Shown here: positions 11,201 through 29,875 of the stretch, in pieces
Position numbering within the stretch: the first letter of the stretch is position 1
Layout: every line of letters starts with the position of its first letter
Assembly (NCBI GenBank): GCA_903876795.1
Contig: CAIRBK010000050.1
Location: forward strand, 51,051-115,050
Direction of reading: 5' to 3'
DNA length: 64,000 bases
DNA from: an uncultured Verrucomicrobiota bacterium
Lineage (GTDB): Bacteria > Verrucomicrobiota > Verrucomicrobiia > Opitutales > Opitutaceae
Position numbers and translations under genes: made by a program
The notes under the pieces: model-generated
What the model was told of the DNA's origin: nothing
What the model saw: only the letters and a program-made list of their open reading frames with translations
Database searches by the model: none

Positions 11201-11213
11201 GGTAACCGTGCGG

Positions 11214-11958
11214 TCAGGCCGAAGGCGGAATCGCTTCGGAAAAAAAGTCGATGACGATGGCCGTGGCATTGTCTCGGCCGCCGCGGACATTCGCAACATG
11301 GATGAGGGCCTGCGCGAAGCCGAGCGGGCTGGGCTGGGCGACGCTCAGGGCGGCGAGGTCGGTGGTGTCGAGGGCGCAGGTGACGCCGTCGCTGCAAAGG
11401 ATGATGCGGTCGCCCGGCGACACGGCGACGCGATGGGTTTCGCAGGAGAGAGGGGCCGACTGGCCGAGGTAGCGGTCGAGCGTGGCCGGCGGTAGAAAAC
11501 CGGCGGCGGGCGCGAGACCGACGACCACGACGGGGGGCGGGGCTGGTGTGCTCCGTGGTGAGGCGCACGACTTCGCCGGCGCGGCCGCGTTGAATGAAGG
11601 CGGCGCTGTCGCCGACGTGGGCGATTTCGCAGCATCCGGGGCCGATGCGCAGGAGCGTGAGCGTGGTGCCGATGCCCATGTGCCGGTGGATCACGCGGCC
11701 GAGCTGGCCGACGGCGTCGTGGCAGGCGGCGACGAGTTCGGCGAGCGGGCGGCCGGGATCGGCGGGCGGCGTGGCCTGCCGGATAAGACTGCGGATGGCG
11801 CATTCGCTGGCGCGTTCGCCGTAGGGCAGGCCGCCGATGCCGTCGGCGATGGCGAACAGGCCGCGGGGGACGTCGAGGAGGTAGCGGTCCTCGTTGGTTG
11901 CGCGCATGCGGCCCACGGTGGTGGCGGCCCCGGCGGAGGTTTGAACGGCGGAGTTCAA
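11214..11958 (-). CDS. PP2C-family Ser/Thr phosphatase, interrupted by an apparent +1 frameshift
   Basis: The encoded protein, about 247 residues, has the PP2C motifs in order: RMRATNEDRYLLD, LFAIADGIGG, GIGTTLTLLRI, HVGDSAAF, then, in a different frame, SPGDRIILCSDGVT and GGRDNATAIVI. The frame changes at a run of six G (11532-11537 on the plus strand); removing one base restores a continuous protein, so this is either a sequencing/assembly error or a real inactivation that would remove the C-terminal metal-binding Asp. The proposed start is a TTG (11958-11956) overlapping the stop of the upstream gene as TTGA, suggesting translational coupling. It is the natural antagonist of the Ser/Thr kinase at 16259-17998 in the same operon. 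Confidence 0.75.
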
Positions 11959-14254: not shown

Positions 14255-14923
14255 TCAGGCGGTGCTGATGAGCAGGGAATCGACGAGGGCGGCGGCGGGC
14301 GCGACGGATGCCGTGTCGTCCAGATGCAGGTAGCCGAAGACCTTGGAGGGCGTGCGCCACAGGAGGGCGGCGTGGCTGCCGGCAGCGAGGACCATGCGGC
14401 CGACCGGCAGATTTTGAGCCGTCAGGATCCGCGACAGGGGCGTGACCATCGAGATGAACCGGTTGAAACGCGCGGGATCGGGCGGCGGCACGATGGGTTT
14501 CCAAAGGCCGGTCACCGGATGGCGCAGGGCGCAGCCGCCGAATCCGCGGAGGGCCTTGATGCCGTGTTGCAGGGAAACAAAAGAGAGCGGCGGCTCGAAA
14601 TGCGACGGGGCGCGAGAGACAGGGAAATGCTTTTCGAGCGCGCCGGAAACGGCGCGGGTCTTCCCGTCGGCCAGCCAGCCGCAGGAATGGGGCTGGCGGA
14701 TAAACTCCAGTTCGTCGGGCCCGAGCGGGCGCAGCCAGAAGCCGCCGCCGGCGTCGAACCCGCCGAGGCCGGTCCACTCGTGCGGGGCGGCCCACATGCG
14801 GGCGGCGGCGGCGGCGGCGCGCGCGGTGTCGGCGCAGAGCGAGCGATCAAGATCGGCTGAAATGGGGCCGATGGCCTCCTTTGGATCGATGAAGAGGGAG
14901 TGGGCGGAACCGGGCGCGTACAT
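14255..14923 (-). CDS. Unknown 222-residue protein downstream of the bilin reductase
   Basis: I do not recognise this family. The protein is soluble, rich in Trp and Pro, with a conserved-looking core around GIKALRGFGGCALRHP and LWKPIVPPPDPARF. No signal peptide or membrane helix is seen. Its ATG shares one base with the stop codon of the bilin reductase gene (TGATG), so the two are translationally coupled and probably act together. Bilin delivery, such as a lyase or chaperone, is a guess from context only; it shows no CpcS, CpcT or CpcE motif that I can see. Confidence 0.7.
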   Translation of the reverse strand: MYAPGSAHSLFIDPKEAIGPISADLDRSLCADTARAAAAAARMWAAPHEWTGLGGFDAGGGFWLRPLGPDELEFIRQPHSCGWLADGKTRAVSGALEKHFPVSRAPSHFEPPLSFVSLQHGIKALRGFGGCALRHPVTGLWKPIVPPPDPARFNRFISMVTPLSRILTAQNLPVGRMVLAAGSHAALLWRTPSKVFGYLHLDDTASVAPAAALVDSLLISTA

Positions 14924-15630
14924 CAGGCAAAAAGGGCTTGGCTGAGAAAACGGTCGGTCCAGTCGGCACCGAAGGTACGGTGGAGAAAAGGGAGGCCGGG
15001 GCTGTTGAGGCGATGGTGGGTCTTGTATTCGGCCAGGGCGAGGGCGTGGGCGGCGCAGGCCGGTTTGTCGAGCCTGGGGGCGAGCGAACCGGCGGAGGAG
15101 AGGTTCCTCCAGACAAACGCGTGGCAGGCCAGCAGCGCCGCCATCCCGTCGGCGGATTCCGGACGGGTGAAAAAATCCAGGCCGGAGCGGCATTCCTCAT
15201 ACCAGCCCGGCGGATCGTCGGCGCGGGTGAGCCGGGGGAAAAAGGTGCGGGCGGACTCCATCGTCCTGCGCCAGAGGGTGGTGGCGTAGGGGTGCGGGGC
15301 CAGGGCCTTGGCGTCGATCACGCCGACGACGGGGCGGCGGCCAAACATCACGAACTCCATCGCATAGATTGGCAGCGCGCGGTCGGGCGCGGGGAAATGG
15401 AACAGGTTGATGATCTCGATGCGCGGGCCGTGGATATGCACGGAGCGGAGTTCCCCGCCTTCCGGGAGCCGGGCGAACAGGGCGGTGAAGCGCGTGTCGC
15501 CGCGGTGGTTGGAGGCGAACTCGTCGGGCAGGGCGATGGGTGCCCCGGCCGCCATGCGGACGGCATCTCGCGGCAGGCTGGTAAAGAGCGCGGCGGGAGG
15601 AACAAAAGCGTTGGCGGCAAGCGTGGTCAT
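14923..15630 (-). CDS. Ferredoxin-dependent bilin reductase homologue (PcyA/HY2 family, divergent active site)
   Basis: The family is recognised from the core IEIINLFHFPAPDRALPIY, colinear with the PcyA segment around its catalytic His88-Asp105, and from the C-terminal pattern YKTHHRLN...LHRTFGADWTDRFLSQALF, which matches the end of PcyA-type reductases. The length, 235 residues, fits the family. By ungapped alignment to Synechocystis PcyA from memory, His88 is Asn75, Asp105 is Glu92 and Glu76 is Ser63, so the catalytic set is altered. These enzymes reduce biliverdin to phycobilins with electrons from ferredoxin; heme oxygenase and a ferredoxin are in the same operon. The product cannot be predicted from sequence. 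It overlaps the upstream gene as ATGA and the downstream gene by one base. Confidence 0.85.
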   Translation of the reverse strand: MTTLAANAFVPPAALFTSLPRDAVRMAAGAPIALPDEFASNHRGDTRFTALFARLPEGGELRSVHIHGPRIEIINLFHFPAPDRALPIYAMEFVMFGRRPVVGVIDAKALAPHPYATTLWRRTMESARTFFPRLTRADDPPGWYEECRSGLDFFTRPESADGMAALLACHAFVWRNLSSAGSLAPRLDKPACAAHALALAEYKTHHRLNSPGLPFLHRTFGADWTDRFLSQALFA

Positions 15631-16262
15631 ACCAAGGGTGCGAGCGCGGGCAGCAGGCGGCCACCGGGCAAGGCGGCCAGGGTGGTCTGGGCCGACGACA
15701 ATTCATCGGCGGCGGGCACGTGGTCCGCGCTGAAATAGGCGGCGATGCCCGCCCAGGTTTCCGGCCGCAGAATCCCATCCTGGGCGAGGACCTGCATCAA
15801 GGCCTGCAACGGCGCTCCGGGGGGCGTGCTCAAGTCCCAAGCCAGGCCGATGCGATCGGCCAGCGTGAGCACGGGGGCGAGCGAGGCGGCCAGCGTGGCG
15901 TCAACGAGCACGATGCGGGGACCGGTGATGCGGGGATCATGGGCGAGGCGGCGCAGGGCGGCGAGCCAGACCGAGGCGTTCAGGGACTGGGCGGGAGCCA
16001 GGATGGCCGGTATCTGGAGCCTGGGCAGGCGCACGGCGAGATCGGCGGGGGCGGTCGACGGTCCGAGCAGGCCGGCGATGCCGGGGTAGGCGGCGGGGGT
16101 TTCCAAATCGAGGGAGTAGGCGAGAGCCGGCCGGTCGGAAACCTCGGCGATGATCGCGGGCTTGAAGCCGGGCCAGAGCGGCGAGTCGGGCTGAAGCAGG
16201 CTCGCAATGGAGGCATCGTTGAAAATCCAGATGTGGAGTGGCTGCCGGGCGTGGGTGTTCAT
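15627..16262 (-). CDS. Unknown 211-residue protein upstream of the bilin reductase
   Basis: I do not recognise this protein. It looks like a soluble alpha/beta protein with no signal peptide, membrane helix or cysteine cluster. The segment ITGPRIVLVDATLAAS is strand-like, followed by helices. ATGA overlaps link it both to the kinase gene upstream and to the bilin reductase downstream, so its product is probably made in step with them. Degenerate receiver-like folding is possible given the many decayed regulators in this operon, but there is no clear motif. Confidence 0.7.
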   Translation of the reverse strand: MNTHARQPLHIWIFNDASIASLLQPDSPLWPGFKPAIIAEVSDRPALAYSLDLETPAAYPGIAGLLGPSTAPADLAVRLPRLQIPAILAPAQSLNASVWLAALRRLAHDPRITGPRIVLVDATLAASLAPVLTLADRIGLAWDLSTPPGAPLQALMQVLAQDGILRPETWAGIAAYFSADHVPAADELSSAQTTLAALPGGRLLPALAPLV

Positions 16263-17998
16263 GGAAGGCGGTAGAGTTGGAAACGGCGGCGGTGGCCGGT
16301 TTCGTTGAGGGTGAAGTAGAATTCGCGGCGCGGCGAAAAAAGCAGCGTGCAGCCGTCATCGTCGATGCGCCCCAGGGGCCGGCGCCGTCCCTCTTGGGAA
16401 ACGCAGGTGACGCAGCCGTCGGCGGTGCCGAGCACGACGCCGTCTTCGCAGAAGCAGTGGAAGCGCGGCATCTCGTCGAAGGGGATGAGCGTGATCTCCC
16501 CGGGGGACCCGAAGATCACGAGCGTGAGGCCGGTCGAACCCAGATCGGACGGCGTGGCGCAGAACACCGAGGGGAAGAGGGTGTGCGAGCTGTCCACGAC
16601 GGGGCCGGGCAGCGGACGCTTGGCCAGAACGCGGCCTTCGGCGTCGAGCCAGACGGCGTCCGGCCGTGCCGTGCCGGGGATGAGGACGACCTGAAGCGAA
16701 ACCGCGGAGGCCAGCAGATGCGGGCGGAGGCCGGAGGTGGGGCAGTCCACAGGGTGGGACGGGGAGTGCGCGGCCAGCAGCCGGACGAAGGCGCGGTCTT
16801 GCTCGACCCAGGCGAGCAAACGGCCGCTTGTATCCAAAGTGGCGGCACGGGGGTGGCCGTCGATGTCGATGAGGCCGCCGGGCATCCTGAAGTCATTTTC
16901 CCAAAGCACCAGGCGGCGCGGCTCGGCGGAGAACAGCGAGCCGTCGGGGCGGATCTGCAGGATGCCGGCGGCTTGCGGGAGGAAACGGTTGAGCGGGCGG
17001 CCGCTGACGGCGTCGAACAATTCGAGGTGGCTGTCGTAAACGGCCGCGAGCGCGGGCCTGCCGTGCAGCGCGAGCGGCAGGTGGTGGCGCGAAAGCGAGT
17101 TGAGGGAGAACTCCTGGTCGAATTCGTAGGCCTCGAGCGGATGAAACGCGGGCAGCGCCGTAACCCGTTTCTGGGCCTTGCCGGTGTCGGCCGGATCGGG
17201 GGCGAGCCCGGCGAGGCGTTGCAGCGCGGCGGCGGCGGAGGGCGGCCGGGCGGCGGGGGTCTTGTGGAGGAGCCAGCGGATCAGCTCGGCTTGCGCGGGG
17301 ACCTTGACGAGTTCAAGGGGCGGTTGGGTTTGCAGGTGGCTGCGGGCGATGGCGCGGATGTCGCCATCGAAGGGCCGGCGGCCGGTGGCGAGTTCGAAGA
17401 GGATAACGCCGAGGCTGTAGAGATCGCTGGCGGCGGAGAACTGCTGGTAGAAACTTTCGGGCGCCATGTAGCCCGGAGCACCGGCGGGGGTGGCGGCGTA
17501 TTCGACGGTCGCGCGGCGGCCGAGGAAACGCGCGACGCCGAGGTCGGAGACCCTGAAGCGCCAGCGTCCGTCGGGCAGCGCCTCGCAGAGGATGTTCTCG
17601 GGCTTGAGGTCGCAGTGCAGCAGCTGGTTTTGGTGAAGGTGGTCGAGCGCCGCGAGCAGGTCGCGGGCGCAGGCTTGCCATAGCTCGGGGGCGACCGGCT
17701 GGTCCTCGGTCATGAGGCCGCGGAGGGTGCCGCCGGCCACGTATTCGTAAACGAGGCAGGTGTCCCCGGTGCCGAGGTAGTGGAAGTCCAGGCAGCGCAC
17801 GATGCCGGGGTGCCGGACGGCGAGGATGGCGGCGAACTCGTTGAGCCCGGTGGCGGAGCCGGTGACGGTGCGGCGGATGTGCTTGAGGGCGACGTGTTCC
17901 CCGGTGTGCCGGTCCACGGCCTGGAAGACCTGCCCGTGCGTGCCTGCACCAATGGGTCGCACGATCTCGTAGCGATCACTGGAGATGCCGGGGGTCAT
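16259..17998 (-). CDS. Ser/Thr protein kinase with C-terminal propeller-like domain
   Basis: Residues about 10-275 form a Hanks-type kinase: glycine loop IGAGTHGQVFQAV, Lys39 in VALKHI, catalytic HCDLKPEN (128-135) with Cys in place of the usual Arg of HRD, SDLGVAR (151-157) in place of DFG, and GYMAPES. The C-terminal 300 residues contain repeated short beta-strand units (ALAAVYDSHLELFDAVSGR, GVVLGTADGCVTCVSQEG) like a WD40/quinoprotein propeller. No membrane helix is present, so it is cytosolic. HCD kinases usually retain activity. It is tied by 4-bp overlaps to both neighbours and shares the operon with a PP2C phosphatase. Confidence 0.9.
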   Translation of the reverse strand: MTPGISSDRYEIVRPIGAGTHGQVFQAVDRHTGEHVALKHIRRTVTGSATGLNEFAAILAVRHPGIVRCLDFHYLGTGDTCLVYEYVAGGTLRGLMTEDQPVAPELWQACARDLLAALDHLHQNQLLHCDLKPENILCEALPDGRWRFRVSDLGVARFLGRRATVEYAATPAGAPGYMAPESFYQQFSAASDLYSLGVILFELATGRRPFDGDIRAIARSHLQTQPPLELVKVPAQAELIRWLLHKTPAARPPSAAAALQRLAGLAPDPADTGKAQKRVTALPAFHPLEAYEFDQEFSLNSLSRHHLPLALHGRPALAAVYDSHLELFDAVSGRPLNRFLPQAAGILQIRPDGSLFSAEPRRLVLWENDFRMPGGLIDIDGHPRAATLDTSGRLLAWVEQDRAFVRLLAAHSPSHPVDCPTSGLRPHLLASAVSLQVVLIPGTARPDAVWLDAEGRVLAKRPLPGPVVDSSHTLFPSVFCATPSDLGSTGLTLVIFGSPGEITLIPFDEMPRFHCFCEDGVVLGTADGCVTCVSQEGRRRPLGRIDDDGCTLLFSPRREFYFTLNETGHRRRFQLYRLP

Positions 17999-18654
17999 GC
18001 GACTTGGCAGAGCGAGGCCAGCAGGGTGTGGGCCGGCTCGCCTTTTTCGATGCGCGATTCGAGGGCGTCGAGCCGGGCCGTGGCGGTGATGGCAAAGATG
18101 CCGCGGGGCGCGCCGCCGCGGGTGCTGGCGATTTCCTGGCAGTCGAGGTCCTGCCCGGCGATGTGGGTGAAGAGGGAGCGCAACACGCCGGCGATCAGGA
18201 AGTCCACGCGGGAGGTTTCCTGGTCGAGGACTTCGGAGAAAAGGGAGTTTTCCAGGGTGGCGGTGATGACGCCGTGGCTTTCGGCCTTCGAGAGGTCGAG
18301 CGTAAGGAGGCCCCAGCCATGGGCGGAGAAGTAGCCTTCGACGAGCTTGAGGTATTCGGCGACGGGGAGGTCGGCGGGGTTGGCGTTGAACATGAGGCCG
18401 AGCTCATGGTCCAGGTGCCTGGCGACGCGGCGGCCCCAGAGTGTGCCGCAGTTTTTGAGGATGAGGCGCCAGGCCGGGCCCGCCTCGTCGACGAGGGCCT
18501 GATGGATGCCCTTCACCACATCGGTGGAGAGATAGATGACGCGGCTGCCGGCGGCGTTGCAGGCGGTGCCGGCGGCGAGGTCGTAGCGGTTGGAGTCGTG
18601 ACTGAAAAAGCGCTCCAGGTCGAGGGTGGCGATGAGATCGTTTGGGTTGGTCAT
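17995..18654 (-). CDS. V4R-like (4-vinyl reductase fold) domain protein, copy 2
   Basis: The 219-residue product ends with a V4R-like pattern: LFTHIAGQDLDCQEIASTRGGAP then GIFAITA, comparable to the small-molecule-binding V4R domains seen in bacteriochlorophyll 4-vinyl reductase (BchJ) and in regulators. Of the Cys residues usual near the end of that fold, only the one in LDCQE is kept. The first half (about 1-110) is divergent. The ATG at 18654 follows the globin gene. V4R domains bind hydrophobic ligands or tetrapyrrole precursors, so a bilin- or heme-related role is plausible but inferred. Its stop overlaps the kinase start as ATGA. Confidence 0.65.
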   Translation of the reverse strand: MTNPNDLIATLDLERFFSHDSNRYDLAAGTACNAAGSRVIYLSTDVVKGIHQALVDEAGPAWRLILKNCGTLWGRRVARHLDHELGLMFNANPADLPVAEYLKLVEGYFSAHGWGLLTLDLSKAESHGVITATLENSLFSEVLDQETSRVDFLIAGVLRSLFTHIAGQDLDCQEIASTRGGAPRGIFAITATARLDALESRIEKGEPAHTLLASLCQVA

Positions 18655-18665
18655 GGTGGCCGGGC

Positions 18666-18752: not shown

Positions 18753-19238
18753 CTAGATGATGCCGCGATAGGTCTCGTAGATGGAGCGCTGGTGGGGCCG
18801 GAGCTTCGCGATGTGCGCGAGGATTTCCGGATCGGAGAAGTAGCGCCCGGTGGTGCCGGCCGCGATGTCCGGGTAGCCGAAGGACTGGATGATGGTCTTC
18901 ATCCAGAGGAGGAGCTTGTCGCGGAACCAGTCGGGGTCGCCCATGAGCATGCAGCCGGTGGCGTAGGCGGTCACGTAACGGACGTCGCGGATGCACTTGG
19001 CGAGGGCGAGCTGGTGCTTCTGCTCGAAAGGATAAATCTCGTAGATGCGGGTGATGACTTTTTTGACGATCTGGCCGTCGACGGCCTTGATCTCGCGGGC
19101 GGCGGCGACGCGGGAAGCGCCCTCGGGATAAAGCGAGAGGTAGAGGTCGAATTCCGCGTCGGTGAGGTGGCGGGATTCGGCGTCCTTGAACAGCGTCTTG
19201 AGCTGAGGGTGGGAGCGGAGCGATTCGGTCTGGTTCAT
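18753..19238 (-). CDS. Phycobiliprotein-superfamily globin (BBAG-like), apparently truncated by TAG
   Basis: This 161-residue helical protein matches the phycobiliprotein fold. ALAKCIRDVRYVTAYATGC corresponds to the alpha-84/beta-82 chromophore site, with Cys82 for thioether attachment and Arg84/Asp85 that contact the bilin, followed by DPDWFRDKLLLWMKTIIQSF and GYPD as in helices E-F. N-terminal helices (AAREIKAVDGQIVKKVITRI) also fit. Globins of this type beside PcyA-like genes outside cyanobacteria are known as bilin biosynthesis-associated globins. It likely binds a bilin made by this operon; whether covalently is unknown, as no lyase is recognised. A TAG codon cuts off the final helix (see 18666-18752). 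Its ATG overlaps the stop of the FFxxLPW gene by 4 bp. Confidence 0.85.
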   Translation of the reverse strand: MNQTESLRSHPQLKTLFKDAESRHLTDAEFDLYLSLYPEGASRVAAAREIKAVDGQIVKKVITRIYEIYPFEQKHQLALAKCIRDVRYVTAYATGCMLMGDPDWFRDKLLLWMKTIIQSFGYPDIAAGTTGRYFSDPEILAHIAKLRPHQRSIYETYRGII

Positions 19239-19960
19239 GGGAGCAGTTGGTCGGGTTGGCGGGACCAGGGCAGGTCGTGAAAAAAGGCGCCGGCGAGGGC
19301 GTTGCGGCCGGCCTGGCGGGCGGCGCGGTCGGAGGTGCGGGCGGCGCTGAGCATGCCGGTGAGGAGAAGGTTGTCGGCCGGCAGGCTGGCCGTGCGCGGA
19401 TCAAGGCGGTCGTCCTCGCGGGAGGCGGTGACGCGGATGGAAGTGATGGCGTCTCCGGGCGCGCGGCGTCCGTCCCAAGGCAGGGTGCGGAAAAAAGGTC
19501 CGGCCTCGGATTGGCGTCCGGCGGGGGCAAACTGCGGAGGCGTTTCGCAGGGGGTGGTGGAGGGGCCGCGGGCGGGGGGCACCGGCGCGTCGGGCAGCGC
19601 GGCCGGGAAATTGGCGGCGCCGCCGCCCCAGCCGAGCGCGGAGAAAAAGGCGCGGGCGGTGGAGGGACGCCGGACCGGTTGGCCGTATGAAGGCGGGAGT
19701 GGCTCCGGGTCCCGGATGGAGGCATCCGCGACGGCGGTTTCGACGAGCGGCAAAACGGTTTCCGGCGCAGGCGGCGTGAAGGCGGGTTCGGGCGCGGCGA
19801 CGACCGGAGGCGGGGGGAACACCGCGGGGGCGACCAACACCGCAGGCGGAGCGACAACGGGCGGCGGGACCGGCGCGGGGCGTTCGCCGCGCAGGAAAGC
19901 GGCGAGGCTTTCGACGAAGCCGCGCCAGCGTTCGTGGTGGATGGGTTGCCAGTGGCGCAT
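19235..19960 (-). CDS. Proline-rich, probably disordered protein with three FFxxLPW-like motifs
   Basis: This 241-residue protein has a short N-terminal amphipathic segment (GFVESLAAFL), a long Pro/Ala/Val-rich stretch (28-100) and three spaced copies of one short motif: RAFFSALGW (103-111), GPFFRTLPW (154-162) and GAFFHDLPW (224-232), joined by low-complexity linkers. Such spacing suggests a linker or scaffold that docks three copies of a partner. A related string, FFRNLPLPG, sits at the C-terminus of heme oxygenase in the same operon. It lies between a V4R gene and the globin gene, overlapping the latter by 4 bp. I know no described family for it. Confidence 0.75.
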   Translation of the reverse strand: MRHWQPIHHERWRGFVESLAAFLRGERPAPVPPPVVAPPAVLVAPAVFPPPPVVAAPEPAFTPPAPETVLPLVETAVADASIRDPEPLPPSYGQPVRRPSTARAFFSALGWGGGAANFPAALPDAPVPPARGPSTTPCETPPQFAPAGRQSEAGPFFRTLPWDGRRAPGDAITSIRVTASREDDRLDPRTASLPADNLLLTGMLSAARTSDRAARQAGRNALAGAFFHDLPWSRQPDQLLP

Positions 19961-19972
19961 GGTGGGGCGGAA

Positions 19973-20581
19973 TCAGCCGACCTTGTTGCGGATTTCCTCG
20001 GCGGTGGCGCCTTCCTGGCGCCAGAACTCGGCGGCGTTGACCTGTTTTTCGGGGCCGATCATGAATTTGCAGCAGTCGTTGCCCATCGAGTAGCACTGCA
20101 CCTCGATCGCCTCGCGCTGGGTGCGCTCGAAGTAGCTCATGACGCCCGCGAACATGCCGGCGTAGAGGTGGCAGACGGGTTTGCCGACGCGCTGCATGGA
20201 GTAGGCCACGGCGCTGTTGCGGATCTCGGCGAAGACGATGCCGCGCTGGTGGAAACTGACGTCGAGAGTCCAGGCGCCCCAGCCCTGGATGGTGAGCGGC
20301 CACCACCAGGTCTCGAAGACGAACTGCGGGTTCATCTGCCAGATGTCGAGTTTGCCGCCGCCGAACTCGTGGCGCATGCGGTCGTTGAAGCGCTTCATGT
20401 CGCGCAGGCCCCATTCGCGGCCGCATTTGTACATGATGAGGTTGGCGGCGTCGCCGACATCCTCCTCGAGGCCGGAGTGCATGCCGACGATGAAGTCCTC
20501 GGAGACCTTGGCGGCGCGCTGGCCGTCGCGCAGGTAGAGCATGCCCTTGGAGGGGTCGTTGCGGAAAAAGTCATCGGCCAC
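19973..20581 (-). CDS. V4R (4-vinyl reductase fold) domain protein, copy 1
   Basis: The C-terminal half is a clear V4R domain: VCHLYAGMFAGVMSYFERTQ followed by EVQCYSMGNDCCKFMIGP, with the Cys pattern typical of the fold. The middle contains an aromatic stretch FVFETWWWPLTIQGWGAW. The only standard start in the frame is a GTG at 20581, but coding-like sequence continues upstream in the same frame (see 20582-20652), so the real protein is probably about 24 residues longer. It lies between the ferredoxin and FFxxLPW genes. A role in binding a tetrapyrrole intermediate is inference from fold and context. Confidence 0.8.
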   Translation of the reverse strand: MADDFFRNDPSKGMLYLRDGQRAAKVSEDFIVGMHSGLEEDVGDAANLIMYKCGREWGLRDMKRFNDRMRHEFGGGKLDIWQMNPQFVFETWWWPLTIQGWGAWTLDVSFHQRGIVFAEIRNSAVAYSMQRVGKPVCHLYAGMFAGVMSYFERTQREAIEVQCYSMGNDCCKFMIGPEKQVNAAEFWRQEGATAEEIRNKVG

Positions 20582-20682: not shown

Positions 20683-21156
20683 TTACTTGTTGGAGACGTC
20701 CAGGCTGCCCAAGTTGAAGTCCACGTCCTGGAGCTGCATGATGTAAGTGCGGGTGATGATCTTGTCTTTTTGAATGAGAATGCGCCCGTCCTTGGGATGG
20801 AGGATGGGCACCTTGGTGCGTTTGCCGATGAGAGCCTCGAGGTCGTTGAACGACTGGACGTAGAGGCCTTCGGGCAGGAGAATCTCAACGCCCTCGCCGA
20901 TCACGCGGCACTGGCAGGAGAGGCGGCTGTTGGGCTGGGCGCCGGTGATGAGGGCAAGGGTGCGTTTTTCGCGGTCACCCATCGGGGTGAGGCTGTCCGG
21001 GCCGCCGGCGACGTAGACGTGGCAGGTGGCGCAGATGCCCTGGCCGCCGCAAGCCATCATGACGGGACATTGCTGGGCGAGCAGGGTGTCCAGGACACGG
21101 GTGTTGGTGGCGATGGCGACCCGCTGGTTGATGGGCTGGAGGAGGACTTCTTTCAT
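20683..21156 (-). CDS. [2Fe-2S] ferredoxin with C-terminal extension
   Basis: Cluster ligands are Cys36, Cys42, Cys45 and Cys81 in MMACGGQGICATCH and LSCQCRV, the C-x5-C-x2-C...C spacing of plant/adrenodoxin-type ferredoxins. The ferredoxin fold takes about 100 residues; about 55 more follow, ending in ITRTYIMQLQDVDFNLG, which is unusual. The obvious role is electron donor to heme oxygenase and to the bilin reductase, both ferredoxin-dependent in cyanobacteria. Its start overlaps the stop of the HhH gene as ATGA. Confidence 0.92.
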   Translation of the reverse strand: MKEVLLQPINQRVAIATNTRVLDTLLAQQCPVMMACGGQGICATCHVYVAGGPDSLTPMGDREKRTLALITGAQPNSRLSCQCRVIGEGVEILLPEGLYVQSFNDLEALIGKRTKVPILHPKDGRILIQKDKIITRTYIMQLQDVDFNLGSLDVSNK

Positions 21157-21830
21157 GAAAGGAGGGGGCGGAGCACGCCGGGCAGGTTTTGGTGGAGGAA
21201 GGCAGCCCGTCCGCCGGTGGGCGGTTCGGTGCAGACAAAATGGAGGTGGAATTTTTTCACGCGGACCGTGAGCAGAAGCTGTTCTGGGCCGATCGCGGGG
21301 GCGGCCTCAGCGGCGGGAGCGACATGGATCGCGGCGATGCCGGGCGCGGGTTTCGACCAGGGCTGCAAATCCGTCAGGCAAACGGCCTCCTGCCGCGAGC
21401 GCCTCATGAGGTCGTGGAGGCGGAAGCGGTGCGCCTCGGGCGGGCGGCCGGCAAGGCGGGTGAAGCGCTTGGGGCCGATCAGGGGCACCAGCGCCAGTTC
21501 GTCGAGGCTGGCGAAATACTGGGCCTTGGCGCGCTGGGCGATGATGTTGGCGGAGAGGGTGGGCCCGATGCCTTCAAAGGCGAGCAGCGCCTCCTGGTCG
21601 AGATAGTTGAAGGAGGCGAGCAACTCGGTCTCGGTGAGACCGGCGGGGGTGCGGCGAGCGACGCGGCGCACCTCGTCGTGGAAGGGGTCGCCCGCCGCGA
21701 GGATGACCTTGCCGGGGGCGCGCCCCTGCCAGCGCCAGCGACCGGGGCCGCTGCGGTGATGCGGGCGGGAAAGCGGTCCGGTGCGGCGGGGACCGGGCAG
21801 GCTGTCGGCGGCGTTTAGGGCGGTGAGCAT
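21153..21830 (-). CDS. Helix-hairpin-helix domain protein
   Basis: Residues about 65-130 contain two helix-hairpin-helix units (LLAFEGIGPTLSANIIAQR and ALVPLIGPKRFTRLAG), a ComEA/DNA-binding-like fold that also serves in protein contacts. The N-terminus (PGPRRTGPLSRPHHRSGPG) is basic and disordered and the C-terminal 80 residues are unrecognised. The ATG at 21830 lies 11 bp after the giant globin-like gene and the stop overlaps the ferredoxin start. Its presence in a bilin operon is unexplained; a DNA-linked output or a purely structural adaptor are both possible. Confidence 0.75.
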   Translation of the reverse strand: MLTALNAADSLPGPRRTGPLSRPHHRSGPGRWRWQGRAPGKVILAAGDPFHDEVRRVARRTPAGLTETELLASFNYLDQEALLAFEGIGPTLSANIIAQRAKAQYFASLDELALVPLIGPKRFTRLAGRPPEAHRFRLHDLMRRSRQEAVCLTDLQPWSKPAPGIAAIHVAPAAEAAPAIGPEQLLLTVRVKKFHLHFVCTEPPTGGRAAFLHQNLPGVLRPLLS

Positions 21831-21841
21831 GGTGGCGGCAA

Positions 21842-24800
21842 TCAGGCGACAGTCCGGGTGAACTCGGCGTGGGCGCGCTGGACGAGGGCGGCCTGTTCTT
21901 CGGTCAGAGGCCTGCCTTGTTGCCGGGCGTGGTGGGCGAGTTTGGCCGAGGCGTCGCCGGCAAGCGGGCCGAGGTGGGTGTAGGCGGGGACGTCGGCGGA
22001 GACGCGGATGCCGAGGAGGTAGAGCGGGATGGGGCCCGGGGCGGCGGTGGCGGGCAGGGCGAGCTTCAGGCCGGCGAAGCGCGAGGAGAGGTCCTGCGCG
22101 AATTTCGCGAGGGCGAGGGCGCCCGGGTGCTGCGCGCCGATTTTTTCGGCGGCCGAAGAGGCGAGGGCCTGATAGAACTGAAGGGCGCCCTCCTCCTTGT
22201 CGGCGTGCACGGCGGCGATCGTGCGGGGGCAGCTCCAATACCAGGCGTGCGAGGGGTCGGCCTGGCCGATGACGGCGTTGAGCGTGAGGATTTCGAGGAC
22301 GTAGAGGCCCTCGTTGCGCAGGTCGGGGCTGTTGATCCAGTCGACCGATTTTTTGCCGAAGCCGAGCTTGCTGAGAAGGCCGGCGGTCTTGACCGGTGCC
22401 AGAGGCAGGGTGAGACCGGCGCCGAGCGAGGCTTGCACGGTGGTGAAGCGCGCGAGCACCGCCTCGTCGGGATCGAGGGCGATTCCGAAGGCCTGAGCGG
22501 CCGAGGCGTCGGCGGGATCGGACTCGACAAGGCGTTCGTCGGGTCGGACGCGGGCGAGAAGCGAGGCCTGCCAAAGCGGCCGGGCGAGCGGGTGCGAGGC
22601 CTGGGCGGCGCAGGCTCGGACGAGGCGGGAGCCTTTGCCCGCTAAGAGGGCCTGGAGGCGCTGGATCAGCGCGGGCAGGGCGAGCAGGCGCCGCCTGAGG
22701 GAGTTGGGCACGCGGCCGGGGAGCAGCGTTTCGCATTCCCGGCCGATGTCCTCGGCGAGAGCAACCCAGGCGGCGGGGCCGTGGACGCGCCCCAACGGGG
22801 TGGAGAGCATGAGTTTTTCCACGAGGGCGAGACCGGGGGCCGGACCTTCGTCGGGCGTGACGGCGGCAGCGGCGAGAGCGGCGAGGAAACGGCGCCAGTC
22901 GGCGAGGGTGTTGCCGTGGCGGGTCGCCAGGATTTCAGCGAGGGCGGGGACGGCGGTCGCGATGAACGGCCGGATGGCGGGCAGGTTGCGAGCCATGCGC
23001 TGCAAGGCTCCGAACCAAGTCCAGGCTGCGGAGCGCAGGCCGGGATCGATGCCGGCGGCGACCGCCTCCTCGTGGCGGCACCAGGCGGCGGAAAGTTCCA
23101 ACGCGCCGTGGTTCAGATGGGGCAGCGTGATCTCGGCGAGGTGGCTGGAGAGATTGAGCCACGCGCGCACCGGAGCCTGCGTGGAGAGCAGGTGGCCGAG
23201 GGTGGAGAGCAGGTGTTCCTGATCGCGCGCGCATTTCTGGCGGAGGGCGTCGTCGGGCGTCACGGCGGCTGCATAATCCCGGGCGAGCGCGGCGGAGTGG
23301 CGGAGCAGATGATGGCCGAGCGCGGCTTGGCGGACGACCTCGAGAGTCGCCAGGAAAAAGACGCGCCAGAACATGGCGGGGCCGGCGGCGAGGTGTTTGG
23401 AGAGATCGCGCGTGAGGCCGTAGAAGGCCGAGACCAGTTCGCGGGCGGGGCGGTCGGCGAGGTCGGGGGTGAGGCGGACGAGCAGGAGTTCCCACGCGGC
23501 CTCGAAGTCGCCACTTTCCTCCAGCCCGCAGACGATCGCCTCGAGGTGGTAGCAGAGGCGGTCGGCCAGGGCGGCGCGGAGGGCGGCGTCGCCAGGCACG
23601 GCGTAGTCGGCGGCTTGGTCAGCGATGGGGCGGATGGCGGCGAACAGGGCGCCGACGTAGTCCGGCGAGGCGGCTTGCGGGCCGAGCGCGAGTTCGCGCC
23701 AGAGGGGGCCGGTAGCGGTGAAGAGCGGGGCCTCGATGTCGAGGATGGCGTCGCCGGCGAGGGCGACGCCAGGCGGGAGCACGGCGCGGAGGGCCGCGTT
23801 GACGCGGGCGTGGGCGTTTGAGGCGACGACCCGGTCGAGCAGGAGGTGGTTGTCGGCGGCGAAGCCGAAGAAAAGGCGAGGCGATTCCGCGGCGTGATCC
23901 CATATCGCGGCGGCGGTCTGGCGAAACGCGTAGCCAAAGGAGAGGTTGTTGGTGGCGCGGTCGCACTTCGCGGTGGTGCCGTTGGCATAGGGCACGTCGC
24001 GGCCCCCTTCGAGGAGGGCGACGAGTTCGTCGGCGTGGCGGCCGGCGTTGGCGGCGACGGCGAGCGCGGCGCGCAGGGCGGGCCACTCGAGGGCGAGCGT
24101 CGCGAAGTGCGAGCGGAGGGCGTTGGGATTGGCGGCGTGCGCGATGAGCGCGTCGCCCAGTTCGAGCCAGGCCTTGGGCGTCGTGTCTCTTTCGATACAG
24201 GCGGCGACGAGTCCGGCGCGGGCGCGCGCGGCGGCGGGGAAGCCGGAGGCGAGGGCACGGGGCTGGTCGCCGCTGAGCGGGTGAAGCAGGTGGGCGCGGA
24301 GCGCGGCCTGGGCCAGGGCGGGCGCGTGGCCGGCGAAGTTCCGGGAGCGCATGTGGCCCCAGGACTTGAGGATCTCGCCGCCGGGGAGAACGAGGTCGAG
24401 CGTCCTGGCGGCTTCACGGGCTGAGGGAAGACCGGTGGCGCGCGCGTAGCGTTCGGCGGGATTAGTCCCTTCGGCGGCGGCGAGCGCGGCGAGGAGTTCG
24501 GGGGTGCGCGCCAGCCAGCGGGAAACTCCGGAGGGAACGGCGGAGCCGGCGACTTCGGTCAGGTTTTTCAACAGCGACGCGATCTCGGCGGACGAGCGGG
24601 TGGAGGCGGGCCAGGAGAGCAGGAAGCGGTTGAAAAGCGCGGGGCCGGACCAGGGGCCTTCGGCGGGGGAGTACTGCGCGGTGAAGGCGGCGGCGAGAAG
24701 ATCGCGCTGGAGACGGTCCTCGTCGGCGCGGGCGGAGAAGCTGTAGTCGGTCGGCGTGAAAACTTTCCTGGCGAGGGGATGGCTCACGGCCCAGCCGTTG

Positions 24801-27601
24801 GCGATGTGCTCAAACTGGGAGACCCAGCGGGCGAGGAAGATGTTTTCGAGCGGGTCGAGCTTGGGGCCGAGGTGCTTGGCGACGGTGCGGGCGGAGAGCG
24901 CCCAGATGTGCGCGGGGTAGCCGACGAACGGGGAGAGCAGCTCCAGGAACCAGCGGGTGGCGTCCACCCAGAACAGGCCGGGGGCGGTGCGCGCGAGGCG
25001 TTCGCCGAGGTTGACGAGGAGGTGGAGCTGGTCGCGGGTGCAGCGGGCGGCGGCCTCGGCGCGGCCGAGGTTTTTGAAGTGGCCGGGGGCGTAGGCGACC
25101 ATGGCGTCGCTGTATTCGCGGGCGATGACGGCGGCGTGTTCCACCAGGGCGGCGGCGACGCCGGACTGGGCGAGGGCGAGCGCGAAACCGTCGGCGCTTT
25201 CGGTGAGGAGGAAGGCCTGGGCGGACGGCCCCGAGGAGGGATCGGCGAGGGTCTCGAACAGGGCGGCCGCGCAGGCGGCCCGTTGTTGCGCGAGGGAGGG
25301 CTGGGACAGCTGTGGCAGGATGCGGGCGGCGGCGGTGTCGGCGTCGCCGGTGGTCCAGCGTTCGCGGTGGTAGGCGACGAAGGTGTTGAGGAGGGCGTCG
25401 GCGGTCTTGGGATTGACGACGGAGAGATCGGCGAGCTTGGAGCGAAGCACGACGAGCAGGGGCTCACGGTCGGCCTCGGGCGCGGGGTAGCCGGCGACAA
25501 GACGTCGGGCGAGAGGGCCGGTGATGGCGGTGGGCGGGCCGGTGAGGGTTTCAAGACATTCGATGCCGAGGTTCTCGCGGTAAACGAGCTGGATGGGGGT
25601 GAAGGCGGCGGCGACCTCCGCGGGGTCGAGGTGGCGGGTGAGGGAGTGGTAGATGGCGGCGAGATTGCACTCGAAGAGTTTCGCCGGGCGCGTGGCGACG
25701 TAGTTGCCGACGGCGCTGTTCCACCATTCGCCGAGAACTTCGTGTGGGGCGGGGGTGTCCGCGAGCAACAGGCTGGAGACCTGGCGCAGGGTGAGGGCGT
25801 TGTCGCGGGCGCAGGAGACGCGGCCGTCGGGGCCGACCTTGGCGGCGTAGTCGGGCAGGGAGAGCATGACCTCGTCGGAAATCGCGGTGGAGATGGCCTC
25901 GATCTTGAGCTCGATTTTCCAGGCTGCGGTGAGGCGCGCCAGGTTTTTGCCGAAAAGGCGGGCGGAGACGTTGAGCGTGGCATGTTCGGGCTGGGGGCTG
26001 AAACCGGTTTCGGCGAAGATGTCCCAGCGTTCGCGGAAGTTTTCGTCGGGCAGGTGGACCAGGCGGGGGAGGACCTGCATGGCATACCAGCGGGAGACTT
26101 CGATGTTGCCGCGCTGGGCGCCGTGGATGCGTTGCTCGACGGAGATGCGCGAGAGGATGTGGCCGATGTCGCGGGAGCAGCGTTCGGGGCCGTCGACGGA
26201 GGCGAAGGGAAGCCCCGCGAAGGCGGAGGGGGGAACCGGTTTGCTCCAGCGGATCGGGAGGGTTTTGATTTCGGTGGCGCGGGCCTCGAGGGCCTTGAAG
26301 AGGGCGGGGAGCCGTGACCAGGGGAGGGATGCGGGCTGGCCGGCGGCGAGTTGCTGGAGGGCCGACGAGAATCGGCTGAGTTTTTTCCAAACACCGGCGG
26401 CGGAATCGAGGCCGAGCTCGCGGACGGCGGGCTGGAGGAAGAACTCACGGGCCTCGGCGGGGTTGGGGGTGAGCGTCGCTATCCAGAGGCTGCGGGCGAG
26501 AAGCTCGTTGCCGAGGGAGACAAACTGCTCGGTGGTGTCCTTGCCGGGCATGCCCTGGGCAAGGTCGTCGGCGATCTTGCGGAGGGCGGCGACATGGCCC
26601 TGGAGAGCGGAGGGGATGGAGGTGACGGCGGAGGAAAGGCGTTTCCAGTGGTCGGCGGCCTCGTGGATCGGTTGGTAGCCGGCGAGTTCGAGGCCCTGAG
26701 TGATGCTGGTGCGCCAGCCCGCCCCGGAATCGCAGAGCGCGGAGGCGGGCGCGGCGCCGACCCATTCCGGAGAGATGGCGGCGCGGAGGGTCGTGGCGGC
26801 GGGGCCGCCGGCGCGGGCCAGCGTGGCGAGGATGGTGATGCGCTCGGCGGCGGCCAAATCGGCGTCGGAGGCGGTCGCGTGGATTTTCCAGAAGGCGAGC
26901 AGCGCCGGCTGGATCGGCACGGCCGACCAGGCCACGCGGAAGACGGGGGGCAGCAACTGGGCGAGGGCGGTGCTTTCGGCCAGGGATGCGATGGCGAGTT
27001 CAAGCTTGAGCAGAAGAATCTCCCAGAAAACAGCCGGCGCGGAAAAGGCCGACAGTACATGCCGGTAGAGATGAGCGAGGAAAAGCAGCCGGGCTTCGCC
27101 GGGTGAGAAGGCGGGGGCGGTGACGGACCATTCGGAAAGAGCGAGGACAAGGCCGGCGGCCAGCCGGTCGATCGGCATGGAGGTATCCGCGCCGGGCATG
27201 AGGCGCATCTCGGCCGCGAGGCTTTTACCCAGTTCGTCCGCCTTGGCGGCGAGGGCGGAGACCGGGGCGAGCAGGGCGATGCTTTGGGCGGCATTTTCGA
27301 GGATTTCCCACGCGGTCAGGTAGTCGGGATCGTCGAAGTCGGCGGCCAGCGCGGTGAGCACGGCATCGCGGGAGGTGAGGGTGAGCGTCTCGGCGGCGCC
27401 GGCGGCGGACTCCGGCATAAATCGTGCGGAAGCTTGCAGGGGCAGGGTGAACCGGCGGCCGAGGCTGAGCTGTTCGTGAAAAAGGCCGGCGAGCTGTTGG
27501 TGTGGGCCCCAGGCATAGGCGGGAGCCTGGGAAAAACGGGCGGCGAGGGATTGGAGACGGCGCTGGCGAAAACCGGCGAAAGCGCGTGCAGAGTCGGACA
27601 T
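21842..27601 (-). CDS. Giant (1,919 aa) multi-globin-like protein with four C-x-R-D bilin-site motifs
   Basis: The protein is almost all alpha-helical, Ala/Leu-rich and cytosolic, with no enzyme motif. It repeats the phycobiliprotein chromophore signature Cys-x-Arg-Asp at residues 475 (ERCSRDIGHIL), 597 (VSCARDNALTL), 854 (ARCTRDQLHLL) and 1457 (QKCARDQEHLL), with a degenerate CDRA at 1213. Around 854 the match to the operon's own small globin extends through helices E-F (LFWVDATRWFLELLSPFVGYP against DWFRDKLLLWMKTIIQSF then GYP). Cys-less echoes of the same helix pair occur at about 172-205 (SAPAVFWEILLL) and 1390-1425 (AGPAMFWRVFFL). I infer a chain of divergent phycobiliprotein-like globins, perhaps 8-10 units of about 190 residues, able to hold several bilins. 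The ATG at 27601 is preferred over 27652 because heme oxygenase ends at 27649. Confidence 0.7.
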   Translation of the reverse strand: MSDSARAFAGFRQRRLQSLAARFSQAPAYAWGPHQQLAGLFHEQLSLGRRFTLPLQASARFMPESAAGAAETLTLTSRDAVLTALAADFDDPDYLTAWEILENAAQSIALLAPVSALAAKADELGKSLAAEMRLMPGADTSMPIDRLAAGLVLALSEWSVTAPAFSPGEARLLFLAHLYRHVLSAFSAPAVFWEILLLKLELAIASLAESTALAQLLPPVFRVAWSAVPIQPALLAFWKIHATASDADLAAAERITILATLARAGGPAATTLRAAISPEWVGAAPASALCDSGAGWRTSITQGLELAGYQPIHEAADHWKRLSSAVTSIPSALQGHVAALRKIADDLAQGMPGKDTTEQFVSLGNELLARSLWIATLTPNPAEAREFFLQPAVRELGLDSAAGVWKKLSRFSSALQQLAAGQPASLPWSRLPALFKALEARATEIKTLPIRWSKPVPPSAFAGLPFASVDGPERCSRDIGHILSRISVEQRIHGAQRGNIEVSRWYAMQVLPRLVHLPDENFRERWDIFAETGFSPQPEHATLNVSARLFGKNLARLTAAWKIELKIEAISTAISDEVMLSLPDYAAKVGPDGRVSCARDNALTLRQVSSLLLADTPAPHEVLGEWWNSAVGNYVATRPAKLFECNLAAIYHSLTRHLDPAEVAAAFTPIQLVYRENLGIECLETLTGPPTAITGPLARRLVAGYPAPEADREPLLVVLRSKLADLSVVNPKTADALLNTFVAYHRERWTTGDADTAAARILPQLSQPSLAQQRAACAAALFETLADPSSGPSAQAFLLTESADGFALALAQSGVAAALVEHAAVIAREYSDAMVAYAPGHFKNLGRAEAAARCTRDQLHLLVNLGERLARTAPGLFWVDATRWFLELLSPFVGYPAHIWALSARTVAKHLGPKLDPLENIFLARWVSQFEHIANGWAVSHPLARKVFTPTDYSFSARADEDRLQRDLLAAAFTAQYSPAEGPWSGPALFNRFLLSWPASTRSSAEIASLLKNLTEVAGSAVPSGVSRWLARTPELLAALAAAEGTNPAERYARATGLPSAREAARTLDLVLPGGEILKSWGHMRSRNFAGHAPALAQAALRAHLLHPLSGDQPRALASGFPAAARARAGLVAACIERDTTPKAWLELGDALIAHAANPNALRSHFATLALEWPALRAALAVAANAGRHADELVALLEGGRDVPYANGTTAKCDRATNNLSFGYAFRQTAAAIWDHAAESPRLFFGFAADNHLLLDRVVASNAHARVNAALRAVLPPGVALAGDAILDIEAPLFTATGPLWRELALGPQAASPDYVGALFAAIRPIADQAADYAVPGDAALRAALADRLCYHLEAIVCGLEESGDFEAAWELLLVRLTPDLADRPARELVSAFYGLTRDLSKHLAAGPAMFWRVFFLATLEVVRQAALGHHLLRHSAALARDYAAAVTPDDALRQKCARDQEHLLSTLGHLLSTQAPVRAWLNLSSHLAEITLPHLNHGALELSAAWCRHEEAVAAGIDPGLRSAAWTWFGALQRMARNLPAIRPFIATAVPALAEILATRHGNTLADWRRFLAALAAAAVTPDEGPAPGLALVEKLMLSTPLGRVHGPAAWVALAEDIGRECETLLPGRVPNSLRRRLLALPALIQRLQALLAGKGSRLVRACAAQASHPLARPLWQASLLARVRPDERLVESDPADASAAQAFGIALDPDEAVLARFTTVQASLGAGLTLPLAPVKTAGLLSKLGFGKKSVDWINSPDLRNEGLYVLEILTLNAVIGQADPSHAWYWSCPRTIAAVHADKEEGALQFYQALASSAAEKIGAQHPGALALAKFAQDLSSRFAGLKLALPATAAPGPIPLYLLGIRVSADVPAYTHLGPLAGDASAKLAHHARQQGRPLTEEQAALVQRAHAEFTRTVA

Positions 27602-27648: not shown

Positions 27649-28401
27649 TCAATTGGCGGGAGCGGCTGAGGCCCAGGAGAGGGCCTCGCGCCGGGGGGCG
27701 CGTACACCGGGCAGGGGCAGGTTGCGGAAGAAGCTGATGAAGCCGTTGCCATCGAGACTCTCGAAAATGGCGATGTTGTGGCAGAAGGAGCGGGAGGCTT
27801 CGTCGATGACGGCATCGGTGGCGGAGGCGGGCAGGCCGTCGAGCTCGTCAAGGCGAGCGCGGAAAAGGGTCTTCATCGCGGCGATGTCGGCCACCTGGGG
27901 AAAATCGTAGAAATCAAGGCCGGCGTGTTTCGAGACGCCGAGCGAACGTTCGGCGATGCGGGCGAGGATCTGTCCTCCGGAAAGGTCTCCGAGGTAGCGG
28001 GTGTAAAGATGGCCCACGAGGCGGACGGGGTCGGTGGCGCCGATCTCCTTGATGCGTTTGACGTAAGCCTGGGCGGCGGACATCGGGGCGATGGTGCCGG
28101 CCCAATGAGGCCCGGCGAGAAACACGAGATCACGTTCGATGGCTTCGGTGCGGAACAGTTCGCGAAAATGAAAGCGCGCGATGACCGGATCGGTCGCGGC
28201 CAGACGGCAGGTTTCCTCTTCCATGGTCATATAGACGGGGTGGAGGGCGGCGAGCAGGCGGACGTAGGAAGAAGGTGTGGCGGTGCCGCGCAGGAAGCCG
28301 CGGATGAAGGTGGTTTTTTCAGCGCGGGTGTGGACATCGCTGATCGCGAGGCGAAGGCGGGAGGAGAAACCCTGGGGCGCGACTGGAGTGGAGTTTGGCA
28401 T
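27649..28401 (-). CDS. Heme oxygenase (biliverdin-forming)
   Basis: The 250-residue protein matches HO1/HmuO-type heme oxygenases: proximal His24 in SDVHTRAEKTTFIRGFLRG and the distal-helix signature YTRYLGDLSGGQILARIAE (133-151). It opens heme to biliverdin, CO and iron using ferredoxin or other reductant. In this operon it would supply biliverdin both to the phytochrome and to the bilin reductase. The C-terminal tail (220-250) is longer than the catalytic core needs and contains FFRNLPLPG, resembling the FFxxLPW motifs of the protein at 19235-19960. The ATG at 28401 is chosen because it begins shortly before the conserved N-terminal helix and 10 bp after the upstream gene. Confidence 0.95.
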   Translation of the reverse strand: MPNSTPVAPQGFSSRLRLAISDVHTRAEKTTFIRGFLRGTATPSSYVRLLAALHPVYMTMEEETCRLAATDPVIARFHFRELFRTEAIERDLVFLAGPHWAGTIAPMSAAQAYVKRIKEIGATDPVRLVGHLYTRYLGDLSGGQILARIAERSLGVSKHAGLDFYDFPQVADIAAMKTLFRARLDELDGLPASATDAVIDEASRSFCHNIAIFESLDGNGFISFFRNLPLPGVRAPRREALSWASAAPAN

Positions 28402-28411
28402 GGCGGTGCGG

Positions 28412-29065
28412 TTACGAGCGGGGTTGGCGAATATGCAGGTGCCAGAAAATCCGCAGGGCGCGGAAATCCTCGGGTAAAAACAGGGCGGCATGAGCGTTCC
28501 ACACGGCCTGGCCGGAAGGGCCGAAGGAGCGGCCCAGAAGCTTGCGGTGCTGATCACCGGAAAGGGCGACGAAGAACGGGCAGTCCTCGCAGTGGCTGCC
28601 GCTCACCCGGTCCCGACAGTGGTCGACGGACAGGCGGCTGCACTGGCCCGAGGCATCCGCGTGCTGATAACTCTGCCGGCAGGCCTTGAACTCGGGACTC
28701 AGCATGGCAATGAAAACTTGGATACAAAGCGTGCGCAGGACGTCGTCGGCCCGGTGCCTGGGCAGGCGGACCAGGGTTTTTTCGGCGAGCGAGAAAAGGT
28801 AGGAATCCTCCAGCGTGCGGGGTTCGCCAATTTCATTGGCGGCGAGAGGCTGCGGCGTCCCCTCGGCGAGAACGGTGGCCCACAGCCCTTCCCACAGGCT
28901 TGAAATGTAGGCGTCACTGGGATGCTGCACGGATTGCTGCGCGAAATAGCGCCTGGTTAACTCCATGCCGATGCCGACAAACGCGCCGCCGGGACTGCCG
29001 CCGCACGCGCTCACGATGCGCTCATAACTGTCGGCGGAAAACGGAAGCGAAATCACAATGGGCAT
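28412..29065 (-). CDS. Unknown protein with a four-cysteine cluster, first gene of the bilin operon
   Basis: This 217-residue protein is not recognised. Helical segments fill the N-terminal two thirds. Cysteines at 142, 150, 159 and 162 (QCSRLSVDHCRDR, SHCEDCPFF) form a compact set able to bind zinc or an iron-sulfur cluster; Cys21, 114 and 129 lie outside it. As the first gene of the bilin operon, directly upstream of heme oxygenase, it could be a redox or metal sensor, or a globin-like relative; neither is proven. Confidence 0.75.
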   Translation of the reverse strand: MPIVISLPFSADSYERIVSACGGSPGGAFVGIGMELTRRYFAQQSVQHPSDAYISSLWEGLWATVLAEGTPQPLAANEIGEPRTLEDSYLFSLAEKTLVRLPRHRADDVLRTLCIQVFIAMLSPEFKACRQSYQHADASGQCSRLSVDHCRDRVSGSHCEDCPFFVALSGDQHRKLLGRSFGPSGQAVWNAHAALFLPEDFRALRIFWHLHIRQPRS

Positions 29066-29194: not shown

Positions 29195-29875
29195 GTGTCT
29201 TCCGCCAAATCCCCCCTACCTCGCGTCGTCTTCGTCGAGGACGAGGCGTTGCTTCGCGGATTGCTAGTGGAGTTTTTTCACCGCAGCGGCCTTTTTGAAG
29301 TGGTGGGGGCTTACGGGGACGGCACTGAGGCAATTGCGCAAATAGGCCTTTTAAGGCCGGATATTGTGGTTCTGGATCTGCAACTGCCGGGAATGCATGG
29401 ACGATCGGTGGTTGAGTCCGTCAATCGTCTCTCAAGGCCGCCCAAAGTGCTGGTGTTGAGCAGCAGCACGAACCCCCTGCTTGTTCGCGAACTTCTGAAA
29501 ATGGGGGTTAGTGGAATTTTGCAGAAAGGCATTTCCGCCGGATATGTTTTAGCGGCCGCCGAACGCGTGTTGAGCGGTGGCATATGTCTTGAATTGCCGG
29601 AGGGTGATCTGCGTGATCTCGCGCTGGCGCCTTTTTCGGCAAGAAATCCCGGCCTCACGTCGCGCGAGGTTGAAATTCTGGATCTCGTGGCGCGCGGAAA
29701 ACGATCCAAGGAGATCGCCAGCCTGCTTGGATTGAGCGTGCGCACCGTCGAGAAGCATCGCGAAAACCTGATGCGAAAACTCGGGGTCAAAGACATGGGC
29801 GGGCTCATGAGATACGCCGCCCAAAACGGACTGATTCCTTTTGTCGCCGCAAAACCCGCTGTTTCCCCGCATTGA
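29195..29875 (+). CDS. NarL/FixJ-family response regulator
   Basis: The receiver domain has the acidic pair in VVFVEDEALLRG, the phospho-Asp in IVVLDLQLPGMHG, and LVLSSS plus the Lys in LQKGIS. The C-terminal LuxR-type helix-turn-helix reads LTSREVEILDLVARGKRSKE then LGLSVRTVEKHRENLMRKLG. It starts with GTG. It is divergent from the bilin operon and may control it; a partner hybrid kinase follows with a 4-bp TTGA overlap. Confidence 0.92.
   Translation: MSSAKSPLPRVVFVEDEALLRGLLVEFFHRSGLFEVVGAYGDGTEAIAQIGLLRPDIVVLDLQLPGMHGRSVVESVNRLSRPPKVLVLSSSTNPLLVRELLKMGVSGILQKGISAGYVLAAAERVLSGGICLELPEGDLRDLALAPFSARNPGLTSREVEILDLVARGKRSKEIASLLGLSVRTVEKHRENLMRKLGVKDMGGLMRYAAQNGLIPFVAAKPAVSPH

Follow-up and report, generated by a model that had tools for sequence, protein, structure and literature searches.

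The window, a stretch of 64,000 nucleotides, contains a gene for a 1,919-residue protein (the giant protein) with four CxRD motifs, which lie in segments mutually related by profile comparison. Judging by predicted fold and profile, residues 551–678 are most likely a relative of the phycobiliproteins. A preliminary description had proposed a chain of phycobiliprotein-type globins. That picture holds for one domain by predicted fold (551–678), for three conserved CxRD segments that profile comparison ties to it, and for the location of the gene within a bilin-synthesis cluster, but it does not extend to a CDRA sequence at residue 1213, which is not supported as a unit.

A predicted globin and its paralogous segments

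The giant ORF starts with an ATG in register with the start codons of its homologues, and all 11 rows of alignment A1 share M1. The protein holds 16 cysteines. Four are in CxRD motifs, at 475 (C-S-R-D), 597 (C-A-R-D), 854 (C-T-R-D) and 1457 (C-A-R-D), and one is in CDRA at 1213; all five had been placed exactly where the translated ORF has them. The chance expectation of CxRD in this chain is a mean of 0.048 (maximum 2 in 20,000 residue shuffles). We dropped a fixed 120-residue period of the motif because the spacings of 122, 257 and 603 fit it badly. Much of the remaining chain is other predicted helix that could be assigned to no known fold. The related segments are as follows.

27014..27319, minus strand: residues 95–196, Cys-less paralogous segment (hhalign score to the 854 unit 29.7, masked 32.7)
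25997..26302, minus strand: residues 434–535, paralogous unit with C475-S-R-D (to the 854 unit 42.1, masked 29.4)
25568..25951, minus strand: residues 551–678, predicted phycobiliprotein-type globin domain with C597-A-R-D (predicted fold)
24752..25225, minus strand: residues 793–950, paralogous unit with C854-T-R-D (to the 597 unit 45.9, masked 30.4)
22916..23386, minus strand: residues 1406–1562, paralogous unit with C1457-A-R-D (to the 854 unit E 2.3e-20, masked 105.8)

In the predicted structure, residues 551–678 adopt the phycobiliprotein globin fold, and C597-A-R-D sits in a predicted helix (residues 583–613). The profile of unit 597 matches phycobiliproteins with a best E of 0.0012, and Pfam scans of this unit by itself give matches in 3/7 members (best 3e-7). 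The PF00502 curated cut-off is exceeded in the giant homologue P0011; PF00502 stays below it in P0005, P0010, P0009 and P0125, the window giant does not reach it, and the giant of genome G747 is at the cut-off only when a neighbouring frame is included.

To compare the segments, we aligned profiles of 200-residue slices by hhalign, with reversed controls over 136 pairs. Slice-versus-slice scores reach 158, and the maximum of the reversed control, which belongs to the unmasked comparison alone, is 20.9. Other unmasked pairs score 125 (854–1457), 37.7 (475–1457) and 26.0 (597–1457), and the N-terminal segment scores 26.1 with 597 and 25.4 with 1457. After masking of the four CxRD columns, the pair 475–1457 retains 23.9 and 597–1457 drops to 16.3. 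On these scores the units make up one repeated family joined through unit 854. Unit 597 is linked directly to 854, and to 475 and 1457 via 854; its link to the remaining units is moderate (E 3.2e-4 masked). Among the Cys-less echoes that had been proposed, residues 95–196 gain support, and we count this segment as paralogous on account of the unmasked and masked profile comparisons only; its 10 PDB rows include no phycobiliprotein.

A helix pattern had also been claimed after each motif. In the predicted models, helices start at +20/+45/+63 after Cys 475, at +22/+43/+63 after Cys 597, and at +20/+43/+63 after both Cys 854 (in both models) and Cys 1457, so one ladder is common to the four CxRD sites. 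It is seen at 16 of 1,365 helical positions, by a criterion defined post hoc from the four sites and in a count that leaves out 854. The 597 stretch opens with the helix that comes third after Cys 475, so unit 475 either is short or has this helix in common with it. CDRA-1213 lacks the ladder, and we rejected it as a fifth unit: its Cys lies outside any predicted helix and its profile scores are at noise, except for a weak 24.1 to unit 597 in an alignment that excludes the CDRA.

The profile links and the ladder point towards a possible globin fold at 475, 854 and 1457 as well, and the phycobiliprotein kinship probably covers these units. No phycobiliprotein is among the matches listed for the predicted model of residues 720–1919, where absence does not exclude them; the first model includes unit 475, and its structure-match list is filled by residues 551–678. 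When the unit 854 profile is compared with the PDB, the best 6 of 15 rows are phycobiliproteins (E 0.087–0.22), which are gone once CxRD is masked. Pfam scans of single units give 0/7 members for 854, 0/7 for 475 and 1/7 for 1457 (0.066); at the place matching unit 1457, the L012 homologue has PF00502 below cut-off (E 0.0049). A profile of bilin biosynthesis-associated globins (BBAGs) scores highest where the four CxRD units lie (26.4, 21.0, 28.2 and 21.4) over a background of up to 17.1 elsewhere on the giant and 16.2 reversed; an earlier profile with fewer rows scored weakly. We set these peaks aside as independent evidence because they sink to background when CxRD is masked.

The gene cluster and its occurrence in other genomes

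The giant gene belongs to the following set of genes.

28412..29065, minus strand: conserved 217-aa ORF preceding heme oxygenase; its relatives in L002, L012 and L013 hold the same position
27649..28452, minus strand: heme oxygenase, start not fixed (PF01126, E 4.3e-56)
21842..27601, minus strand: giant protein gene, 1,919 codons plus stop (homologues 47–96% identical)
21153..21800, minus strand: helix-hairpin-helix (HhH) protein, start not fixed (PF12836, E 7.2e-10)
20683..21156, minus strand: 2Fe-2S ferredoxin-type protein (PF00111, E 2.4e-7)
19973..20581, minus strand: V4R protein A (PF02830, E 2.1e-14)
19235..19960, minus strand: ORF of 241 aa, no Pfam match
18753..19238, minus strand: small phycobiliprotein-type globin (BBAG) with CIRD (PF00502, E 4.6e-13)
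17995..18660, minus strand: V4R-like protein B, start not fixed (PF02830, E 0.023, below cut-off)
16259..17998, minus strand: Ser/Thr protein kinase (PF00069, E 2.2e-46)
14923..15630, minus strand: ferredoxin-dependent bilin reductase (PF05996, E 7.3e-13)
6647..11299, minus strand: phytochrome hybrid histidine kinase of 1,550 aa, PAS_2-GAF-PHY-PAS-HATPase-REC (PF00360, E 1.2e-33, and others)

On this strand the order runs from the 217-aa ORF and heme oxygenase through the giant, HhH, 2Fe-2S, V4R and 241-aa genes to the small globin, V4R-like protein, Ser/Thr kinase, a 211-aa ORF and bilin reductase. A response regulator and the phytochrome hybrid kinase lie below the reductase. Upstream of the cluster stand a divergent LuxR-type response regulator (29195–29875) and an ORF (29872–30927); L002 and L012 have a similar LuxR-type regulator at the same place. 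An upstream promoter scan found none. The window's small globin has an in-frame TAG at 18753–18755 (minus strand), about 28 codons before the end of its homologues, and counts 161 aa versus about 190 aa in them. The frame beyond the TAG still resembles the homologues; an assembly error and a recent nonsense change are alike possible.

The order giant, HhH, V4R, small globin, second V4R is kept in 4/4 other giant-bearing genomes of the order, with the ferredoxin between HhH and V4R in 3/4 (the exception is L014). The 217-aa ORF and heme oxygenase precede the giant in L012, L013 and L002 and not in L014; the G057 contig ends earlier. PF00502 occurs in 6/223 genomes of the order, namely five with the giant plus G094, and in 2/387 sampled genomes of the phylum (G000, G055). 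At the giant's place, the G094 cluster has a 331-aa ORF (L028 1306–2301) with weak sigma-54-activator and AAA-lid matches. Bilin reductase is present in all seven giant-bearing genomes, a separate small globin in six (the match in G747 is the giant itself) and heme oxygenase in five, being not found in G635 nor G747 (68% complete). A second ferredoxin of the same kind adjoins the bilin reductase in L029 2068–2529 (G072) and L030 5553–6020 (G055). Phytochrome was detected in two of the five giant-bearing genomes examined. In L012, a kinase that matches PHY and GAF weakly lies next to the cluster.

We searched about 5.8 billion proteins (7,989 candidates scored) and obtained 11 giant homologues, with query coverage of 99–100% in ten and 79% in P0006. 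A second protein search, started from a distant relative, added two, that relative included. In a 16-row alignment (the window giant, 13 database proteins with P0006 partial, L013 and L014), CxRD is kept at 597 and 854 in 15/16 rows each, at 1457 in 13/16 and at 475 in 11/16. By profile search, 5/223 genomes of the order have a giant, the window's own included; three of these hold open frames of 1,950–2,025 aa matching parts of the model, and another holds a contig-end fragment (G057). In that fragment the 597 unit, which has CKRD, precedes a C-terminal part unmatched by the family profile; whatever came before the unit is cut off. Among named genome contigs, one giant relative was found, in a MAG labelled Opitutaceae.

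Searching 384 genomes of the class with unit 597 gave four matches: the window's genome, G055, G747 and G635. The G747 homologue (L035 1609–5955, 1,448 aa), from a different family of the class, lies directly upstream of bilin reductase and has five CxRD motifs, at 535, 665, 942, 1261 and 1373 (expected 0.06, maximum 2 in 5,000 shuffles). Three align with the 475, 597 and 854 sites of the window. Two stand where the window giant has none: 1261 falls in a second 475-related segment, and 1373 is 112 residues beyond. The G635 homologue (L036 10289–14470, 1,393 aa), a profile-only match with a full-length E of 9e-9, has no CxRD, and no cluster genes were detected around it in 19,901 fetched bases. 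G635 encodes bilin reductase and a CTRD-bearing small globin on other contigs. The L014 (G008) giant likewise has no CxRD. Because such relatives persist, we suggest that the chain does more than hold covalent bilin. The small globin of L014 also lacks the CxRD Cys, and bilin reductase and heme oxygenase are on other contigs there.

Comparison with known bilin-binding proteins

Bilin-synthesis clusters with BBAGs were described by Rockwell et al. 2023 (PMC10151467). According to that paper, BBAGs bind bilins without a lyase, their function is left unsettled, and small bilin-binding globins of non-photosynthetic bacteria are regarded as the ancestors of phycobiliproteins; "Verrucomicrob" and "Opitut" are absent from its main text. 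The giant shares with BBAGs (PF00502) the CxRD bilin motif, the predicted fold of residues 551–678, and a cluster of heme oxygenase, bilin reductase, Fe-S and V4R genes. However, BBAGs are single domains, and the giant has four CxRD motifs, much further predicted helix and a separate BBAG encoded in the same window. The cluster fits the 2023 definition, but we do not file the giant as a BBAG because of its 1,919 aa versus the ~190 aa of a single-domain globin.

The Slr0144–Slr0149 cluster of Synechocystis includes V4R, Fe-S and BBAG genes (PMC10151467), as does the window's, and its products interact with each other (PMC9880817). In contrast to the window, the cyanobacterial clusters as described lack heme oxygenase and bilin reductase (PMC10151467), and the passages on Slr0144–Slr0149 mention no giant protein. 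In searches of open-licence PubMed Central literature, no title or abstract start among the papers listed named a multi-unit single-chain biliprotein.

With allophycocyanin and other phycobiliproteins, the giant shares the predicted fold, the CxRD at residue 597 and the profile match. It differs in being no small alpha or beta subunit, in having repeated units per chain, and in that no reaction centre was found. ApcE, the core-membrane linker, is a large chain with one phycobiliprotein domain and scaffold parts including PF00427 linker repeats. The giant is also a large chain with a predicted phycobiliprotein domain and scaffold parts, but no Pfam family, PF00427 included, matches it at E 0.1, and we rejected an ApcE-type linker.

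Possible roles of the giant protein

Most likely, the giant is the large scaffold of a BBAG–V4R–ferredoxin assembly with several bilins, where we infer attachment, copy number and partners. We lean slightly towards the specific form in which the protein, with its predicted globin at 551–678, carries several covalent bilins and scaffolds the small globin, V4R proteins and ferredoxin. Heme oxygenase and bilin reductase, fed by ferredoxin, would supply the bilin, and the Cys of each CxRD may attach it with no need of a lyase, as demonstrated by others for BBAGs. The giant would serve as bilin carrier and assembly platform for these partners and could transfer bilin, or relay a light signal, to the phytochrome encoded nearby. 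A bolder form, which we put forward tentatively, is a single-chain multi-chromophore biliprotein with four bilin-binding globin units (five in the distant homologue). In bacteria that do not photosynthesise, it would correspond to a phycobilisome core strung into one polypeptide and would act as a store of bilin, a relay or a light sensor in a pathway linked to phytochrome. Being a very large relative of the small globins, encoded in their operon and with CxRD units repeated along it, the protein is a candidate scaffold for the bilin-globin cluster. Its units suggest intrachain duplication of a small bilin-binding globin outside cyanobacteria, and it would provide a ready-made multi-bilin polypeptide for probing what these clusters do.

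Alternatively, bilin may bind only at 551–678, with the other CxRD segments as diverged structural copies in a one-chromophore scaffold in the manner of ApcE. We consider this possible but doubtful. The phycobiliprotein fold and significant family matches were detected for this unit only, it is the sole recognised part of the G057 fragment, and several homologues have lost C475 and C1457. However, C854 is as well conserved as C597, the G747 protein has five CxRD, two of them at positions without the motif in the window giant, and the helix ladder follows all four sites. It is improbable that the giant is a helical solenoid scaffold with inherited CxRD and no bilin, the operon's bilins serving only the phytochrome and the small globin: the motif is conserved and multiplied, its counts exceed shuffles in both the window and G747 giants, and a globin fold is predicted at 597.

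The protein had been proposed as a single-chain light-harvesting or light-sensing antenna, passing excitation between bilins, for instance to phytochrome. This reading has little support and appears very unlikely to us. A light-harvesting role is unsupported because the window's genome (98% complete) has no Photo_RC match and characterised BBAGs fluoresce weakly, with quantum yields of 3–7% in the measurements cited from PMC10151467. Also against an antenna, G008, G055 and G072 have no PHY match at E 0.001, with a weak one (E 0.015) beside the G072 cluster. In its favour are the several putative sites on one chain and the phytochrome kinase, which in the window lies downstream of the giant at a distance of about 10 kb, with a PHY match also on the cluster's contig in G057.
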